Of a DNA stretch of 33,546 bases, positions 12,833 through 25,642 are shown piece by piece. Numbering within the stretch: position 1 is the stretch's first letter; the number at the start of each line of letters is the position of its first letter. The position numbers and the translations under genes were made by a program. Under the pieces are notes generated by a model. That model was not told where the DNA came from, did no database searches, and saw only the letters and a program-made list of their open reading frames with translations. This DNA is from Deltaproteobacteria bacterium (GTDB taxonomy: Bacteria; Desulfobacterota; Dissulfuribacteria; Dissulfuribacterales; UBA3076): assembly GCA_019310825.1 (NCBI GenBank), contig JAFDDO010000003.1, positions 1 through 33,546 on the forward strand, given 5' to 3'.

Positions 12833-13798
12833 TCAAGAACCCTCCCCCTTTTTTATTTCTTCATGAAATATTACTTTATTACCCCCTGTTTTTTTTGCGG
12901 CATACATTGAGTCATCAGCTTTACGTATAAAATCGTCAATATCTTCGCGCAATTCCTTGTTTGTTCTCCTGAAGCGGGAGACACCTATGCTAAGTGAAGT
13001 CTTACCTATGTCCTCGTTCAGGTAATTGCTCCGTATACGTTCTGCTATCTGGTTTACCTGCTCTGTGTCAGCCTGGGGAATCATTACAGCAAATTCATCT
13101 CCTCCATAGCGAAATGGAGTATCAACATTACGCCTGATGGAATTACCTAGCACCTTGGCCAAGCGCTGGAGCACATGTTCTCCTGCCTGATGCCCCAATG
13201 TGTCGTTCAGCTCCTTGAAATTGTCCAGGTCTAATATGATTAGAAAAAGAAAATAATTTTGGCGGGTGGCCCTTTGGGCTTCCTCTTCCAGCTTATTGTC
13301 GAGAAAGCGCCTGTTGTATAGGTCTGTAAGGACATCTCTTACGGAAAGTCGTTCCAACAGGGCTCTATATCCACGTTCCCTGATTATTCTGTTGAGCTTG
13401 GCCTCTAACTCGTCCAGGTAAAAAGGTTTTTGAATGAAGTCACATGCTCCAGCTTTAATAACGTCGGTGTAATTAAAGTCTCGACCATATCCTGTTATTG
13501 CTATCACATCGGTTTCAGGCCAAAATTTTTTGATATTCAGGATAAGCTCCATTCCATCCATCCTGGGCATCAGAAAGTCAGTGATTACGATGGTACTGGG
13601 GGACTGCTCCAACAATGATATGGCCTCCATACCGTCAGTTGCTGTACGACATTGGTGCCCCAAACGGGAAAGGAATTCTGCCAATAAGTTTAAGATGGTA
13701 GGATCGTCGTCAACAATTAGCAGTTGTTGTGTTTCTTGTGGCAGATTTTTTGGGATAAAATCTATTTGGCTTTCAGATGATTCTAAAATTTCAGACAA
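12833..13798 (-). CDS. Response-regulator diguanylate cyclase (REC-GGDEF)
   Basis: Makes c-di-GMP from two GTP when its receiver domain is phosphorylated (PleD/WspR-like logic). The N-terminal receiver has LLIVDDDPTI, the phosphoacceptor in VITDFLMPRMDG (D74 in this numbering), the Thr in AITGYG and the Lys in IQKPF. It is joined by a helical linker (LERLSVRDVLTDLYNRR) to a GGDEF domain with the intact active site YGGDEF (232-236). An RxxD product-inhibition site (R-N-V-D) lies five residues before it, so feedback by c-di-GMP is expected. The best start is TTG 13798, with GGAGG (13804-13808) 5 nt upstream; the longer reading from TTG 13828 has no ribosome site. It is divergent from the enhancer-binding activator at 14069 and convergent with mreB. 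Confidence 0.9.
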   Translation of the reverse strand: MSEILESSESQIDFIPKNLPQETQQLLIVDDDPTILNLLAEFLSRLGHQCRTATDGMEAISLLEQSPSTIVITDFLMPRMDGMELILNIKKFWPETDVIAITGYGRDFNYTDVIKAGACDFIQKPFYLDELEAKLNRIIRERGYRALLERLSVRDVLTDLYNRRFLDNKLEEEAQRATRQNYFLFLIILDLDNFKELNDTLGHQAGEHVLQRLAKVLGNSIRRNVDTPFRYGGDEFAVMIPQADTEQVNQIAERIRSNYLNEDIGKTSLSIGVSRFRRTNKELREDIDDFIRKADDSMYAAKKTGGNKVIFHEEIKKGEGS

Positions 13799-14068: not shown

Positions 14069-15154
14069 ATGGACTTAATGATTGGCAATAGCCCACCTAT
14101 CAGGCGCATCAAGGATCTGATCAATCAGGTAGTGAACACCGATTTGAATGTCCTTATTTGTGGAGAAAGTGGCGTAGGGAAAGAACTGGTTGCCCGCACT
14201 CTACATGAGCTTTCTTCTCGTCGAGATTATCCTCTAGTCAAGGTTAACTGCGCTGCGCTACCAAGCGAACTTCTGGAAAGCGAACTATTTGGTTATGAGC
14301 GTGGTGCATTTACTGGAGCAGTACAACCAAAGCCGGGAAAATTCGAGTTAGCCAACGAAGGAACCATACTGCTTGATGAAATTGGCGATATGCCTGTTGC
14401 ACTGCAGGCCAAACTTTTACAGGTATTACAAGATTCTGAATTCGCTCGTGTAGGCGGGGTGAGGAATATTCATGTCAATACCTGGGTGATATCTGCCACT
14501 AATCACAACCTTAATGAAGATGTAAGAAAAGGGAGGTTTAGAGAAGATTTCTATTACCGAATCAATATTATAAAGATAGTGGTGCCACCCCTTCGGGACA
14601 GAAAAGAAGATATTCCATACCTTCTTGAACACTTTATCCGAAAGTACAGAGGCATGTCGAAGGGTGGAGTAATTGATATCTCCGGTAAACTTGAAAAGGT
14701 ATTTGCTGAATATAATTGGCCAGGAAATATAAGGGAGCTTGAGAACTATGTTAGAAGGTTGATAGTCCTTAAAGATCCTGATTTGCTTAAAGAAGAGATC
14801 CTTGGGTCTATGGGCCAACAGATGTCGGAAGATCGACCTATTGCTGAATTATGGACGCCGGATGAATCCCTTATAAATTCAGTGCTCGATAACTGCAGAC
14901 AAGAAATGCAAACACAGTTCCCATCTTTAAAGAAAATCCGGAAAAAGAGTCTGGCCCGCATTGAAAAGGTAGTAATAGAAGAGGCCATCAAGCGGACTAA
15001 TGGTAATCGCAAAAAGGCTGCTCAGCTACTCCAAATAAGTTACAAGGCACTTCTTTATAAGATAAAAGATTTTGGGGTAAAAGTGTCGGCCATAGATTCA
15101 TCTGACGATAGCTTGGAGCTAAAGCTGCCGAAAGAACTGGAGCCATTTGTATAA
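14069..15154 (+). CDS. Sigma54-dependent enhancer-binding activator lacking a receiver domain
   Basis: NtrC-family AAA+ ATPase that remodels sigma54-RNA polymerase. The 361 residues start almost directly with the central domain: IGNSPPIRRIKDLI, Walker A GESGVGKE (32-39), the sigma54-contact loop GAFTGA (79-84, intact), Walker B LLDEIGD (101-107), the arginine-finger region GRFREDFYYRI, and PPLRDRKEDIP. A C-terminal Fis-type HTH (VIEEAIKRTNGNRKKAAQLLQISYKALLYKI) follows a linker of about 70 residues. No receiver, PAS or GAF sensor domain precedes the AAA+ module, so activity must be constitutive or set by a partner, as with PspF-PspA. A second in-frame ATG at 14078 is possible. I saw no clear -24/-12 promoter in this window. 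Confidence 0.93.
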   Translation: MDLMIGNSPPIRRIKDLINQVVNTDLNVLICGESGVGKELVARTLHELSSRRDYPLVKVNCAALPSELLESELFGYERGAFTGAVQPKPGKFELANEGTILLDEIGDMPVALQAKLLQVLQDSEFARVGGVRNIHVNTWVISATNHNLNEDVRKGRFREDFYYRINIIKIVVPPLRDRKEDIPYLLEHFIRKYRGMSKGGVIDISGKLEKVFAEYNWPGNIRELENYVRRLIVLKDPDLLKEEILGSMGQQMSEDRPIAELWTPDESLINSVLDNCRQEMQTQFPSLKKIRKKSLARIEKVVIEEAIKRTNGNRKKAAQLLQISYKALLYKIKDFGVKVSAIDSSDDSLELKLPKELEPFV

Positions 15155-15176
15155 TTTTTTATAGTTGCAATGTAAT

Positions 15177-15214
15177 AGAAAAGCTTTTCCATTTGTGGAA
15201 AAGCTTTTCTTATT
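15177..15214 (+). terminator. Strong hairpin terminator after the sigma54 activator
   Basis: A perfect 14-bp stem, AGAAAAGCTTTTCC (15177-15190) with GGAAAAGCTTTTCT (15197-15210), and a 6-nt loop, lie 23 nt after the stop codon. The following T-rich tract (TATTTTGTT) is short but adequate. The stem itself is A/T-rich. Confidence 0.75.
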
Positions 15215-15357
15215 TTGTTAAAGACGCCCAGATATTAGGCTGCATTCTCAGCATTAAATTAGTAAAAAAAAATTTATTTTGGTATCTTATTTGCATTTAA
15301 ATTATCACTTAATAAATTATTCCCCCTAACATGACAATTTTTCCATAAGGAGACTCT

Positions 15358-16809
15358 GTGCAGCAAGGAGTCCATAGAGATCGGCGTCGATTTTTTCGAA
15401 TACCGTTAAATCTTCCGCTGTGTTTAAAAACAGGGCCCCTTGGATCTGCAACGAGTGTAGTTTCAACTGATCTGAGTCCGTATGGTATTCAAATTAAGTC
15501 TGATAGCCCTGTCAGTCTTCATGAGACTGTGACCATCAGGCCCGGCAAAAAAGGCCTCAAGACCGATTATGTTGCGAAAGGGCAAATTAAGTGGGTTAAA
15601 CGAGAAAAAGGCAAATTTAGAAGTGGAATAGCCTTTGAAGACGCAATTGATTGGCCTTTTTCTATTTCTGATCTAGGTAAAGGCATTGAGACTGAACTCA
15701 GCCGTTCGATTTATTTTCAATACATTTTAGACAGCCTGGATGATGGGGTTCTTATCTTTGATTCCAAGCTCAATATTGTTTCCTCCAATATTAATCAGCC
15801 ATTCTGCTTGCCAAGAGATCCTGAAAAACTCCGGGGAAAACATTTTACAGAGGTCTGTTCACTATTTAAGAATTCTAAAGGAGAAGGTTCTCTTAAAGAA
15901 CTATTAGATAAAGCCATGGTTGATAGAGAAGAGGTTAGGATAAGCGCTTTTCCTTGCGACTTGCCGTGGCTAAATGATACGGATTGTCATAGATATTATA
16001 ATATTTGGCTTTTGCCTTTAATCGGCCCTGGGGGTACAAAAGGTCTGGTTTTGCGCAATCGCGATGTTACTGCACTGCGCCGGCTCCAGGATAGGGAAAA
16101 AGCTAGGGAAGAGACCCAGTGGCAACAATACAGGCATTTCATTTTTGGTCAACTGTTCGATGATCTCCTTGAGGATATTGCAAATCCTTTATCTGCAATT
16201 ATTGGGCGTCTCGATCTTATGACTCAAAAAATGTCCAGCGCTGAAACTCCCATAGGTGAAACACAGGTCAAGGCTTGGGTCTCTGATATCAAGTCAATTC
16301 AGATCATAACAGGTCAAATAACGGAATTTTGTTGGGCCATTGCTTTTAGAAGGAAAAATGAGACAATAAAAGAAGCGGTGCCGTTTTCTTTGAATAGTTT
16401 AATAGAAGATGAGCTAAGAATTTTAGATCTCCATTTCTTTTTCAGGAAAATAGACAAGCAGGTATCATTATCTCCCGATCTTCCGCCACTTCATGTATGT
16501 TATTCAGAGTGGGCCAATGCGTTTTTAGCTCTGTGTCTAGTGCTGATGAGGCAGATGTCAACCCTCAGCAATATGCGGATGTCGATTCAGACTTTTAAGG
16601 AGAATGAAGACTTGGTCCTCCGCATCGTCCACAACGGTAAAGCCTTGAATACGCCTTTAGATAAAGATCCTGCCCTTAATATTTTGGCGCTCTTGAAAAA
16701 GAAATATGGAGTTCATATATACGTTTCAGGTGATTCGGGTTTTCAGACAGTGATACTTAAGATGGCAATACCAAAGATGCAAGAACCGTCAGGAAACTTC
16801 ATTTCCTGA
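15358..16809 (+). CDS. PilZ-PAS protein with degenerate histidine-kinase core
   Basis: 483 residues. Residues 1-100 form a PilZ c-di-GMP-binding domain with both motifs intact: RxxxR (R10-R14 in RRFFR) and DxSxxG (D38-G43 in DLSPYG). A PAS-like domain (about 117-240) has ILDSLDDGVLIFDSKLNIV and the closing GLVLRNRDVTALRR. The next part aligns with a HisKA dimerisation helix, but where kinases have H-E-I-x-N-P-L this has LEDIANPL, so the phosphoacceptor His is Glu272. The ATPase-like C-terminus lacks a clear N-box and has VHNGKAL where DxGxG is expected. It therefore looks like a pseudokinase that senses c-di-GMP. Start GTG 15358 follows AAGGAG with 6-nt spacing. No membrane segment is seen. 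It is convergent with the receiver gene at 16840. Confidence 0.8.
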   Translation: MQQGVHRDRRRFFRIPLNLPLCLKTGPLGSATSVVSTDLSPYGIQIKSDSPVSLHETVTIRPGKKGLKTDYVAKGQIKWVKREKGKFRSGIAFEDAIDWPFSISDLGKGIETELSRSIYFQYILDSLDDGVLIFDSKLNIVSSNINQPFCLPRDPEKLRGKHFTEVCSLFKNSKGEGSLKELLDKAMVDREEVRISAFPCDLPWLNDTDCHRYYNIWLLPLIGPGGTKGLVLRNRDVTALRRLQDREKAREETQWQQYRHFIFGQLFDDLLEDIANPLSAIIGRLDLMTQKMSSAETPIGETQVKAWVSDIKSIQIITGQITEFCWAIAFRRKNETIKEAVPFSLNSLIEDELRILDLHFFFRKIDKQVSLSPDLPPLHVCYSEWANAFLALCLVLMRQMSTLSNMRMSIQTFKENEDLVLRIVHNGKALNTPLDKDPALNILALLKKKYGVHIYVSGDSGFQTVILKMAIPKMQEPSGNFIS

Positions 16810-16839: not shown

Positions 16840-17199
16840 TCATTTCGTTAAATTTCTGCGAACAGAGGACTTGAGATCATCTAAGTTGAAGGATTTAACT
16901 ATATAGTCATCTGAGGCCCACGATGCCAAATCCTGTTTATACTCAGGATAAGCAGAACTCAAGATAACAGGCACCCTTGGTTTTTTCTGTTTCATTTGAC
17001 GCAGCACTTCTATGCCGTCCATACCAGGCATATTGATGTCCAGGATGACAAGGTCCGGTTCCTGAGCGTCAAAGGCCTTAAGGGCATCTTCTCCGCTCAT
17101 CGCCGAGTAGACTTCATAGCCTTCTTCTTCCAACTCTTCCTTGTAAAGGAGATGAATACTCTCTTCGTCATCAACTATGAGTATTTTTTCTTTATTCAT
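16840..17199 (-). CDS. Stand-alone receiver-domain response regulator
   Basis: 119 residues forming a single CheY/Spo0F-like receiver. The acidic pair and Glu are D10-D11-E12 (VDDEES), the phosphoacceptor is D54 in VILDINMPGMDG, the switch Ser is in LSSAYP, and the conserved Lys is K102 in IVKSF (Pro of the usual KPF replaced by Ser). There is no output domain, so it passes signals by protein contact or within a phosphorelay. AAGGTG precedes ATG 17199 by 6 nt. It lies 74 nt downstream of galT on the same strand and could be the last gene of that array. Its other neighbour is the convergent PilZ-PAS pseudokinase. Either could be a partner, but the sequence does not show which. Confidence 0.9.
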   Translation of the reverse strand: MNKEKILIVDDEESIHLLYKEELEEEGYEVYSAMSGEDALKAFDAQEPDLVILDINMPGMDGIEVLRQMKQKKPRVPVILSSAYPEYKQDLASWASDDYIVKSFNLDDLKSSVRRNLTK

Positions 17200-23140: not shown

Positions 23141-25642
23141 ATGAGGAACCTTCTTGTAGGCATTTTTTCATATCTCATCATTTTAGCACTACCTGCTAAT
23201 GGACAGGATTTGGTAGAAATCTCTCAAAATAACATGCCGCAGGCAAGGATTCAGGTAACTCATGAGGCGGTTTCTCCTTCATGGCAGTTGGTCTGGGATG
23301 AAGCCAGGGAAATGGTGAAAAAAAAAGAACTTGATGGTGCTGTAGCCCTTTACAGAGAATTATTAAGAGATCGCCAAGGTCTTATAGAAGCCAGATGGGA
23401 ATTGGCTTTAGTTTTAATGCAGTTAAATAAAGAAAGTCAAGCCATACTTGAATTTGAGCATGTTGTGGAGGCCAGACCCGATGATGTCCAGGCGTTATTC
23501 ATTCTTGCAGAACTTCTAAGCTGTTCAGGTCAGTGTGATAAAGCTATTGTCACTTATAAAAATTTGGTGGCAGAACTCCGTCTCCGGGGAAAAGGCTTCC
23601 ACATTGCCAGAAATGAATTACTGAATATTCCTGAAGAGTTTACCTTGGTGAAGGTCTTAGAAAGCCTTGCCCGTTGTCTGGAATCCCAAAAAAGGCTTAA
23701 TGAGTCCATAACATATCTCCTAAAGGCTTTAGCCATAGAACCTGACCGAAAAGACCTTGAGTTTAAGCTGGCCTGTGGGCTTCTACATCTAAAAAGAGCA
23801 AAGAGCTCCTTATCTCACTTCAAAAAATTACTACCTCAATATGAAAATGATCCAGACTTTTTAGCTAACTATGCAAAGGCCCTTTTAGCTGTGGGAGATC
23901 GAGATAAGGCCATTAAGATATTTGAGAGGTTTGTGGCACTTTCCAGCGATAATGCTGGGGAAGATCACACAGGTAATCTTATATGGAGTGTTAATGAACT
24001 TGTCTCCTTATATTTGATGGAAGGAGACGTCCAGTCAGCAATTAAAGTCCTTGAGGATTTGAAATATAATCATCCGGAAGTGCTTGATAAACAGCTTTTG
24101 GCAACTTCGGGGCGTCTGTATTTTGCCTCACGTAATTATCTCAAGGCCCTTGAGACATTCAGGATTTTTCTGGGAGAAGAACCTGACAATAAAATGGGGT
24201 TGCTGTTTATGGCCCGCGTGTATGAGCGCCTTCAGCTCCTTACACCAGCCATTTCCATTTATAAGCAACTCTTACTTCTTGAGCCCAATCCAACCATTAC
24301 TATGCATTTGGTTGAATTGTTTTTAGAAACAGAAAATTTTGATCAGGCAAGCCTTCTAATTACTGATGATATGCGTAGTTGGCTCCAAAATGATATCAAG
24401 GGAAGAGAGCTTCTATTAGATGTCTATCTGAAAAATGGGAACGGAGAAGGTGTTGAAAAACTTTTAGACAGTAAAGGCGATTTCTTTAAGGATGATGACA
24501 TACTGGCCTCATATGTTTCTCTTGCCACATCGATTGGTTATACGAGTACCCAGATGAGATTTCGTTTATATAACGACGCGTTGCTTGCTTTGGCTGACCA
24601 AGCTGGAAAAAGGGAAGACCTCCTGCAGGTCGGTGTGAAGCTGCTTTTGGGTCTTGGTCAACAGGATATAGCTGAGGAAGTATTAAGGTATTGTTGGTCT
24701 AAGGGCCGGTCCCTGTGGTCTATTGACATGTTGATCGATAGTTACCTTGAGAAGAATAAGTATGAGAATGCTGTTGTTTTGCTTGAAGAGGCACTATCTA
24801 TTTATCCTTCTTCCGCAAGGCTTAAACTGAAGCAGGCCCATCTGCTTCTTAACATGGGTAAGGTCGACTTAGCGGGGGAAGTGCTTTTTTCAATTTGTGC
24901 AGGCGATAACTGGAAGTGGGGAAAAGAAAAAAAACTGCTGTGTGAGGGCTATGCCCTTGGCTTGGCAGGAAGATATGAAGAGGCACTCGATCTTTATGGA
25001 AAAATAATTCAACAGTCACCGAATCATCTGGAAGCACATAGAGGCAGATGGATCAATTTTGCAGCCTATGGATTGGGACAGGAGGCTGATGCAGAGGCCC
25101 TGGGTTTAGAAATAATTACAGGAATTGGGTATTCTGATCTTTCACACAACGGCGATAACGAAAAGTTTGTCCCAATGTTTGTAACAAATGGGAGATTGAT
25201 GCCGGCTCCTGGGGCCTACTTGAGTGAATTAGTACGAAGCAAGAAATTGTTATCACCTAAAGAGATTCTTAGTTCTCCATTCTGTGAAATGGAAGGAGAA
25301 GCATGCCCCTTACTGCTTGCTTTATCCTACGAACATTTTGCAAACTTTTCAGAAGCGGTTGTTATGTGGCTCTCTTTCTTAAAGAGACACGAGACTTACT
25401 GGCCCGGCTATGAACGTCTTGCACGGATATACGAGGATAGAGGTAAAGTAGACTCTGCAAAAAAATTACGGTACAGGACTTGCCACAAAATAAAACATCT
25501 GCGATTGTTTCTTTGTTACGGACAAGATTACAGCGAGCTAAGAACTATCTCTGAAGAAACCGGACCTTCGGGCTTGTGGATATGGCGAAAGCTTGATGAT
25601 ATAGCCCTTGAATCCTGGGAAGGAGTATTCTGTTCCGATTAG
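23141..25642 (+). CDS. Large secreted or periplasmic TPR protein
   Basis: 833 residues. The N-terminus MRNLLVGIFSYLIILALPANGQ is a signal peptide with a probable cleavage after Ala-Asn-Gly or Gly-Gln. The remainder is built of tetratricopeptide-type helical pairs: for example W-E-L-A-L-V-L-M-Q-L-N-K at about 90, FILAELLSCSGQCDKAIVTYKNL, YLLKALAIEPDRKDLEFKLA, ANYAKALLAVGDRDKAIKIFERF, ALETFRIFLGEEPDNKMGLLFMARVYERL and EGYALGLAGRYEEALDLYGKIIQQSPNHLEAHRG. The last ~200 residues are less regular and contain several Cys. TPR scaffolds of this size next to polysaccharide genes often help assemble export or secretion machineries, but no catalytic domain is present. The next gene, an epimerase, begins 73 nt later, so a shared transcript is plausible. 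Confidence 0.85.
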   Translation: MRNLLVGIFSYLIILALPANGQDLVEISQNNMPQARIQVTHEAVSPSWQLVWDEAREMVKKKELDGAVALYRELLRDRQGLIEARWELALVLMQLNKESQAILEFEHVVEARPDDVQALFILAELLSCSGQCDKAIVTYKNLVAELRLRGKGFHIARNELLNIPEEFTLVKVLESLARCLESQKRLNESITYLLKALAIEPDRKDLEFKLACGLLHLKRAKSSLSHFKKLLPQYENDPDFLANYAKALLAVGDRDKAIKIFERFVALSSDNAGEDHTGNLIWSVNELVSLYLMEGDVQSAIKVLEDLKYNHPEVLDKQLLATSGRLYFASRNYLKALETFRIFLGEEPDNKMGLLFMARVYERLQLLTPAISIYKQLLLLEPNPTITMHLVELFLETENFDQASLLITDDMRSWLQNDIKGRELLLDVYLKNGNGEGVEKLLDSKGDFFKDDDILASYVSLATSIGYTSTQMRFRLYNDALLALADQAGKREDLLQVGVKLLLGLGQQDIAEEVLRYCWSKGRSLWSIDMLIDSYLEKNKYENAVVLLEEALSIYPSSARLKLKQAHLLLNMGKVDLAGEVLFSICAGDNWKWGKEKKLLCEGYALGLAGRYEEALDLYGKIIQQSPNHLEAHRGRWINFAAYGLGQEADAEALGLEIITGIGYSDLSHNGDNEKFVPMFVTNGRLMPAPGAYLSELVRSKKLLSPKEILSSPFCEMEGEACPLLLALSYEHFANFSEAVVMWLSFLKRHETYWPGYERLARIYEDRGKVDSAKKLRYRTCHKIKHLRLFLCYGQDYSELRTISEETGPSGLWIWRKLDDIALESWEGVFCSD

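Follow-up and report, generated by a model that had tools for sequence, protein, structure and literature searches.

A PilZ-PAS pseudokinase and a receiver-less sigma-54 activator as a probable phosphorylation-independent switch for PEP-CTERM matrix proteins in Dissulfuribacterales

Introduction

What does a protein do that joins a PilZ domain and a PAS domain to a histidine-kinase body from which the catalytic residues have gone, and with which partner would it work? The question is raised by an open reading frame in the window studied here, a stretch of 33,546 nucleotides (contig JAFDDO010000003.1 of assembly GCA_019310825.1) from a bacterium of the order Dissulfuribacterales. Two names, SeepSRB2 and UBA3076, occur in the titles of metagenome-assembled genomes (MAGs) from its genus. 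The members of Seep-SRB2, itself a genus of Dissulfuribacterales, live as partners of methane-oxidising archaea, with aggregate formation as a central feature (PMC10553843); the main text of that paper makes no mention of PEP-CTERM, exosortase or c-di-GMP. According to Haft et al. 2006 (PMC1569441), further regulators of the PEP-CTERM/exosortase system were left to be found. The initial annotation of the window took the protein for a c-di-GMP-responsive scaffold that might hold a true kinase or one of two receivers encoded nearby. The analysis below retains the pseudokinase and assigns it a different partner.

Results

A PilZ-PAS protein on a conserved, degenerate kinase body

The features of the locus are collected in Table 1. 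The reading frame begins at a GTG codon, with AAGGAG lying five bases 5' of it. A PilZ domain with c-di-GMP motifs and a PAS domain had both been read from the letters alone, and both readings hold: each domain scores above its Pfam cut-off, the receptor motifs RxxxR and [D/N]xSxxG are present, and RxxxR is invariant in the 24 orthologues of the family alignment from which all residue counts here are taken. R9, R10, R14 and G43 are invariant in the 24 rows, as are several DHp and GHKL positions. Position 38 is D or N, and S40 is a serine in 15 of the 24, so that affinity for c-di-GMP may vary between orthologues. Further along the protein, Pfam finds a sub-threshold trace of HisKA at residues 265-295 (E 0.11) and no match to HATPase_c. 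By its motifs, the window protein is probably a c-di-GMP-type PilZ domain, expected to bind the messenger, on a true pseudokinase.

Table 1. Features of the pseudokinase locus, in window coordinates
Feature	Position	Strand	Remarks
Stand-alone sigma-54 activator (bEBP), 361 aa	14069..15154	+	Pfam Sigma54_activat 1.3e-67, HTH_8 9e-13
Distal upstream-activator dyad, predicted, GAAAAGCTTTTC (palindrome)	15178..15189		about -103 from the -24 box; invariant in the genus
Proximal upstream-activator dyad, predicted, GAAAAGCTTTTC	15198..15209		about -83 from the -24 box; 20 bp from the distal dyad
Predicted sigma-54 (-24/-12) promoter of the pseudokinase gene, TGGTATCTTATTTGCA	15280..15295	+	orthologous site in 23/25 gaps
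Ribosome-binding site AAGGAG	15347..15352	+	direct reading of the sequence; region conserved in the genus
Pseudokinase reading frame (PilZ-PAS-DHp-GHKL)	15358..16809	+	483 aa; E272 for His; N, G1, G2 and lid lost
PilZ domain, residues 8-95	15379..15642	+	R10xxxR14, D38xS40xxG43; Pfam E 8.7e-6, above cut-off
PAS domain, residues 124-242	15727..16083	+	Pfam PAS_4 E 1.5e-5, above cut-off; PAS-like secondary structure in the model
DHp-like two-helix region, residues about 250-335	16105..16362	+	E272 at the phospho-acceptor position; alignment and model
GHKL-like region, residues about 340-470	16375..16767	+	HNG for DxGxG, without lid, without G2; alignment and model

The loss of kinase motifs extends well beyond this one protein. 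At residue 272, where the initial annotation had noted Glu in place of the phospho-acceptor His, the alignment has Glu in 22 of 24 members, Asp in one, Asn in one and His in none. A histidine (H425) replaces the G1 aspartate in 24/24 orthologues, giving HNG for DxGxG; the second N-box Asn is absent throughout the alignment, and both N-box asparagines are lost within the order. The early remark that no clear N or G1 box could be seen is thereby extended to the family, from which the ATP lid and the G2 box are deleted as well. None of the 24 aligned proteins combines a His at 272 with a complete N/G1/G2 set. At the equivalent places most active relatives in the phylum have the His, an NIIxNA-type N-box, DTGxGI and GxGLGL.

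Of 148 related genomes, 31 have a match to the family at E<=1e-10, though the weakest of these matches (in G058 and G130) are ordinary active kinases. A search of the genome contigs with the single sequence found no relatives; the alignment-based search found 25 named ones. The tree sets the pseudokinases of the order apart from the active kinases with high support, a family from outside the order (f28) being closest to the active ones, and this is consistent with an old loss of the kinase motifs. The pseudokinase is conserved over the whole order, and within the genus it has a dN/dS of 0.35 as a whole and of 0.26 over the GHKL region; the dead domain is therefore under constraint. From alignment and tree we read it as an old conserved pseudokinase family, not a single decayed gene. 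Kinases that are half degenerate, with the H-box His retained and the G2 box and lid altered or missing, occur at L166:5133-6251, L167:4655-5398 and L168:734-1474, the second of these among genes that look flagellar by sequence.

An AlphaFold2 model built from the 24-sequence alignment (mean pLDDT 80.5, pTM 0.55) consists of PilZ, PAS, a long two-helix DHp and a GHKL-like alpha/beta layer. Its best matches among PDB structures are LOV/PAS histidine kinases, with E down to 2.7e-15, and the predicted fold is therefore histidine-kinase-like in both DHp and GHKL, not unrelated to that class. A chain of the NifL-NifA complex stands at rank 10 in the list of structural matches and the DivL pseudokinase (4q20) at rank 32; the place of NifL reflects the PAS-kinase fold of the model and alone does not single NifL out. 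With the single protein sequence a PDB search gave no match, and with the family profile PAS-kinases scored best.

A receiver-less sigma-54 activator as the probable partner

Directly upstream lies the gene of a sigma-54 activator that starts at its AAA+ domain and continues into a Fis-type helix-turn-helix (HTH), without an N-terminal regulatory domain and without a receiver. All 26 activator orthologues have GAFTGA and Walker B, and 24 of them a canonical Walker A pattern. Within the order, the activator occurs in 26 of 27 genomes with the pseudokinase versus 0 of 19 others (Fisher 5e-12); in G018, the sole exception, a contig end truncates the locus. The two genes lie on different contigs in G040 and G042, and both are present there. 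They are also missing together: G002, of the same genus, and G010, of the same family, lack both, with the flanks and both receivers intact and the REC-GGDEF gene adjoining that of the lone receiver once the pair is missing. Outside the order, G062 and G099 each have both genes in different flanks, and in the family f28 activator and pseudokinase are the only conserved neighbours in the stretches read.

The PilZ-PAS half of the protein is also found joined to transcription activators. In G335 and G186 (L170:2786-4828 and L171:2652-4724) single polypeptides have the order PilZ-PAS-PAS-sigma54-HTH, their PilZ-PAS part being matched by the family profile at about 1e-23; they are, in their own right, candidates for proteins through which c-di-GMP would control sigma-54 transcription directly, within one polypeptide. 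At L169:3369-4871 (G371) PilZ-PAS is fused to a BTAD (SARP-like) transcription activator domain. Since the unit is fused to a sigma-54 activator and to BTAD, there are transcription activators elsewhere whose sensory half is PilZ-PAS. By linkage and joint inheritance, the partner of the pseudokinase is probably the activator at 14069-15154, with which it may be in physical contact. The general expectation that the pseudokinase is an allosteric partner of some other protein is thus supported.

Control DNA between the two genes

The gap between the genes contains a tandem pair of GAAAAGCTTTTC dyads that is unique in its own genome even when three mismatches are allowed. Over the order the dyad has the consensus GGAAA-N4-TTTCC and keeps its place, at -82 to -86 in 20 of 21 gaps and at -102 to -107 in 19 of 21. 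Compared with dinucleotide shuffles, a -24/-12 site downstream of it is significant (p<=0.05) in 23 of the 25 orthologous gaps; family f28 has a perfect promoter of this type (TGGCACCTTTTTTGCT), and in one of the two failures, G045, the gene start is over-called and a pattern search shows dyad and promoter. A search of the 350 bases upstream of the activator gene itself gave neither a sigma-54 promoter nor the tandem-dyad layout. Further exact copies of GAAAAGCTTTTC occur in the genus, but as they lie inside coding sequence they were discarded as regulon sites.

The layout is as expected for activator sites. Two dyads and a -24/-12 promoter keep their distances constant throughout the order, which makes the pseudokinase gene a probable target of the activator. 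These genomes encode other activators, and the assignment of the dyads to the product of 14069-15154, which we take as their likely ligand, therefore rests on adjacency and phyletic association.

PEP-CTERM surface proteins as the predicted regulon

In the genome of the window there are 18 strong sigma-54 sites, versus 7 for a reversed control. Three of them, beyond that of the pseudokinase, are likewise preceded by dyads of this kind, similarly spaced, and each stands before a gene whose protein ends in a PEP-CTERM-type signal, one of these genes lying directly after pgaC and pgaD. Across 47 genomes, sites that combine the upstream dyads with the promoter number 4.5 per genome with the pair versus 1.2 without (reversed-pattern controls 0.6 and 0.5; p=1.7e-7), and the enrichment has p=0.008 once two own sites per genome are removed. 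PEP-CTERM genes stand behind 16 of 29 such sites (17 with the VPES variant), whereas none was found among 517 neighbourhood ORFs or behind 21 other sigma-54 promoters; the 29 are intergenic sites with a complete gene behind them, PEP-CTERM was called by a fixed expression written after examples were seen, and the counts include orthologues, representing about eleven independent groups. Some of the genes behind dyad and promoter are not PEP-CTERM genes. In family f9 a conserved gene for a basic protein of about 97 amino acids is repeatedly so placed, at L295, L296, L300 and L304, and a second conserved gene, for a protein of about 150 amino acids, has the same layout in front of it at L284, L297, L301 and L305.

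The sorting enzyme follows the pair. Exosortase is found in 22 of 27 pair-bearing versus 4 of 19 pair-less genomes of the order (p=7e-5); in five MAGs of the order that carry the pair (G004, G007, G031, G036 and G037) it was undetected. In G062 (L276:1-6000, contig C13) the arrangement has become an expanded array, in which three successive PEP-CTERM genes each have a near-identical dyad and sigma-54 promoter of their own, and a further copy of the element closely follows the exosortase gene. PrsK, the known PEP-CTERM kinase, is above its cut-off only in G004, G005 and G006 of the order members searched. The window also encodes, at 23141-25642 (+), a TPR protein that resembles PrsT (TIGR02917, 110.8 bits, cut-off 312.2), next to nucleotide-sugar and WecA-like polysaccharide genes.

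Discussion

A proposed switch and its alternatives

The explanation that we favour, with fair confidence, is that the pair at 14069-16809 is a transcription switch that works without phosphorylation, resembling NifL/NifA with PspF-like feedback, gated by c-di-GMP through PilZ and controlling PEP-CTERM matrix proteins. The stand-alone activator would bind the two tandem GGAAA-N4-TTTCC dyads and turn on the -24/-12 promoters before the pseudokinase gene and before genes for PEP-CTERM (exosortase-sorted) surface proteins. The PilZ-PAS-pseudokinase would supply the sensory input that the activator is without: c-di-GMP on PilZ, together with a second signal at PAS, would change the DHp/GHKL body, which would then grip or release the AAA+ domain of the activator, as NifL does with NifA. 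As the activator would drive the gene of its own partner, the loop would be autoregulated like that of PspF and PspA. The feedback is most likely negative, and we favour an anti-activation that c-di-GMP would either relieve or impose.

The pseudokinase might instead be a target of the activator and not its regulator, serving downstream as a c-di-GMP effector on another protein, for example in polysaccharide synthesis. Its gene does have the same upstream sites and promoter layout as the PEP-CTERM genes, and membership in a shared regulon could explain the co-inheritance. Against this, no other target is known to show such coupling with the activator, which extends to location, presence and absence alike; the activator itself lacks a sensory domain; and PilZ-PAS is fused to an activator elsewhere. 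We judge this reading to be fairly unlikely.

The partners first proposed, a true kinase or the receivers at 12833 and 16840 for which the protein would be a c-di-GMP-responsive scaffold, are a good deal harder to defend, and the proposal is now quite improbable. Both receivers do lie near the pseudokinase in much of the order, and the structural matches include DivL, a pseudokinase described in PMC4211667 as sensing the phosphorylation state of a response regulator. The lone receiver is nevertheless found in almost all members of the order, those that lack the pseudokinase included, is on another contig in G062 and G024, and belongs to a conserved dnaJ-moaC-dksA-(GH57)-galT block; REC-GGDEF (12833) is away from the pseudokinase in several orthologue loci; and in G002 and G010, as noted, both receivers persist without the pair. 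On these phyletic and linkage grounds the two receivers are rejected as partners. The lone receiver, at 16840-17199 (-), is itself strongly conserved, with 92-99% identity in the genus, 75-87% across the order and a dN/dS of about 0.10.

It is very improbable that the tandem dyads are a mere terminator of the activator gene with a fortuitous likeness to promoter architecture. In the genus the repeat can, as read from the sequence, fold into a near-perfect hairpin with T-rich sequence after it; other families, however, have separate dyads in the same phase to the promoter (about -83 and -104), which led us to reject the terminator reading, the same layout recurs before unrelated PEP-CTERM genes, and the promoter is significant (p<=0.05) in nearly all of the orthologous gaps. 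That the protein is a cryptically active kinase, using another residue and an unusual ATP site, is scarcely credible: the fold is retained and some DHp and GHKL positions are invariant, but the order as a whole has lost the His, both N-box asparagines, the G1 Asp, the lid and G2, and there is no Pfam HATPase_c match.

Comparison with known systems

Of the systems with which the proposed switch may be compared, NifL-NifA of Azotobacter vinelandii is the closest in working. NifL joins PAS to a kinase-like DHp/GHKL body that carries out no phosphotransfer; it acts by binding NifA at the AAA+ domain, so that the NifA hexamer is blocked (PMC12998174). Here, too, a PAS protein with a DHp/GHKL body and without phosphotransfer is encoded next to a sigma-54 activator that it may contact. 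Unlike NifL, the window protein has PilZ instead of a redox PAS tandem and has lost the motifs of the nucleotide site; its activator is without a GAF domain, the activator gene comes first, and the predicted targets are PEP-CTERM genes, not nif. The NifL model TIGR02938 does not match the window protein at E<=0.001 and gives the f28 orthologue 34.6 bits versus a cut-off of 242.5. The protein is thus NifL-like in working and is not NifL.

PspA is a partner that PspF transcribes and that sets PspF activity in trans. The activator of the window resembles PspF as a receiver-less, stand-alone AAA+-HTH protein with GAFTGA that would drive its partner's gene; it differs in having a PilZ-PAS-pseudokinase as that partner and not PspA, and it is below the cut-off of the PspF model (TIGR02974, 267.4 versus 443.6 bits). 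DivL of Caulobacter, already met among the structural matches as 4q20, is likewise a pseudo-histidine kinase that signals by contact, as the window protein may do; it works on receiver and kinase partners and has no PilZ. FleQ binds c-di-GMP itself. The likeness to FleQ is in the proposed c-di-GMP input to a sigma-54 activator, and the difference is that here the messenger would enter via a separate PilZ protein.

In proteobacteria PEP-CTERM genes are preceded by a 17-nucleotide upstream motif that ends in TTTACA (Haft et al. 2006, PMC1569441). The PrsK-PrsR system of that study shares with the pair a sigma-54 activator and an upstream site with a -24/-12 promoter before PEP-CTERM genes; in contrast to it, there is here neither a receiver nor an active kinase, and the site is GGAAA-N4-TTTCC, not the 17-nucleotide motif. 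The PrsK model TIGR02916 does not match the window protein, and the activator, which has no receiver, scores 302.6 bits versus a cut-off of 502.6 with the PrsR model TIGR02915 and is not PrsR.

Significance for the order

A literature search, with most subscription journals outside its range, returned no paper on a PilZ-pseudokinase or on the pairing of one with a sigma-54 activator; a wiring in which c-di-GMP would be linked to sigma-54 via a dead kinase is absent from the literature searched. The pair is a candidate for an additional PEP-CTERM/exosortase regulator with its own DNA site. To the broader proposition, that it represents a new class of c-di-GMP-gated, phosphorylation-free switch of NifL/NifA type which in Dissulfuribacterales, the SeepSRB2-type partners of methane-oxidising archaea among them, replaces PrsK/PrsR in the control of PEP-CTERM matrix proteins, we give an even chance. 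The probable function of a degenerate kinase has here been reached via its gene partner and a promoter. The protein has lost its kinase chemistry and is coupled to an apparent switch for matrix genes, so that its control of matrix building in these seep bacteria probably proceeds without phosphate transfer; for a genus in which one genome is labelled SeepSRB2, the pair marks a point at which matrix proteins are likely to be controlled.
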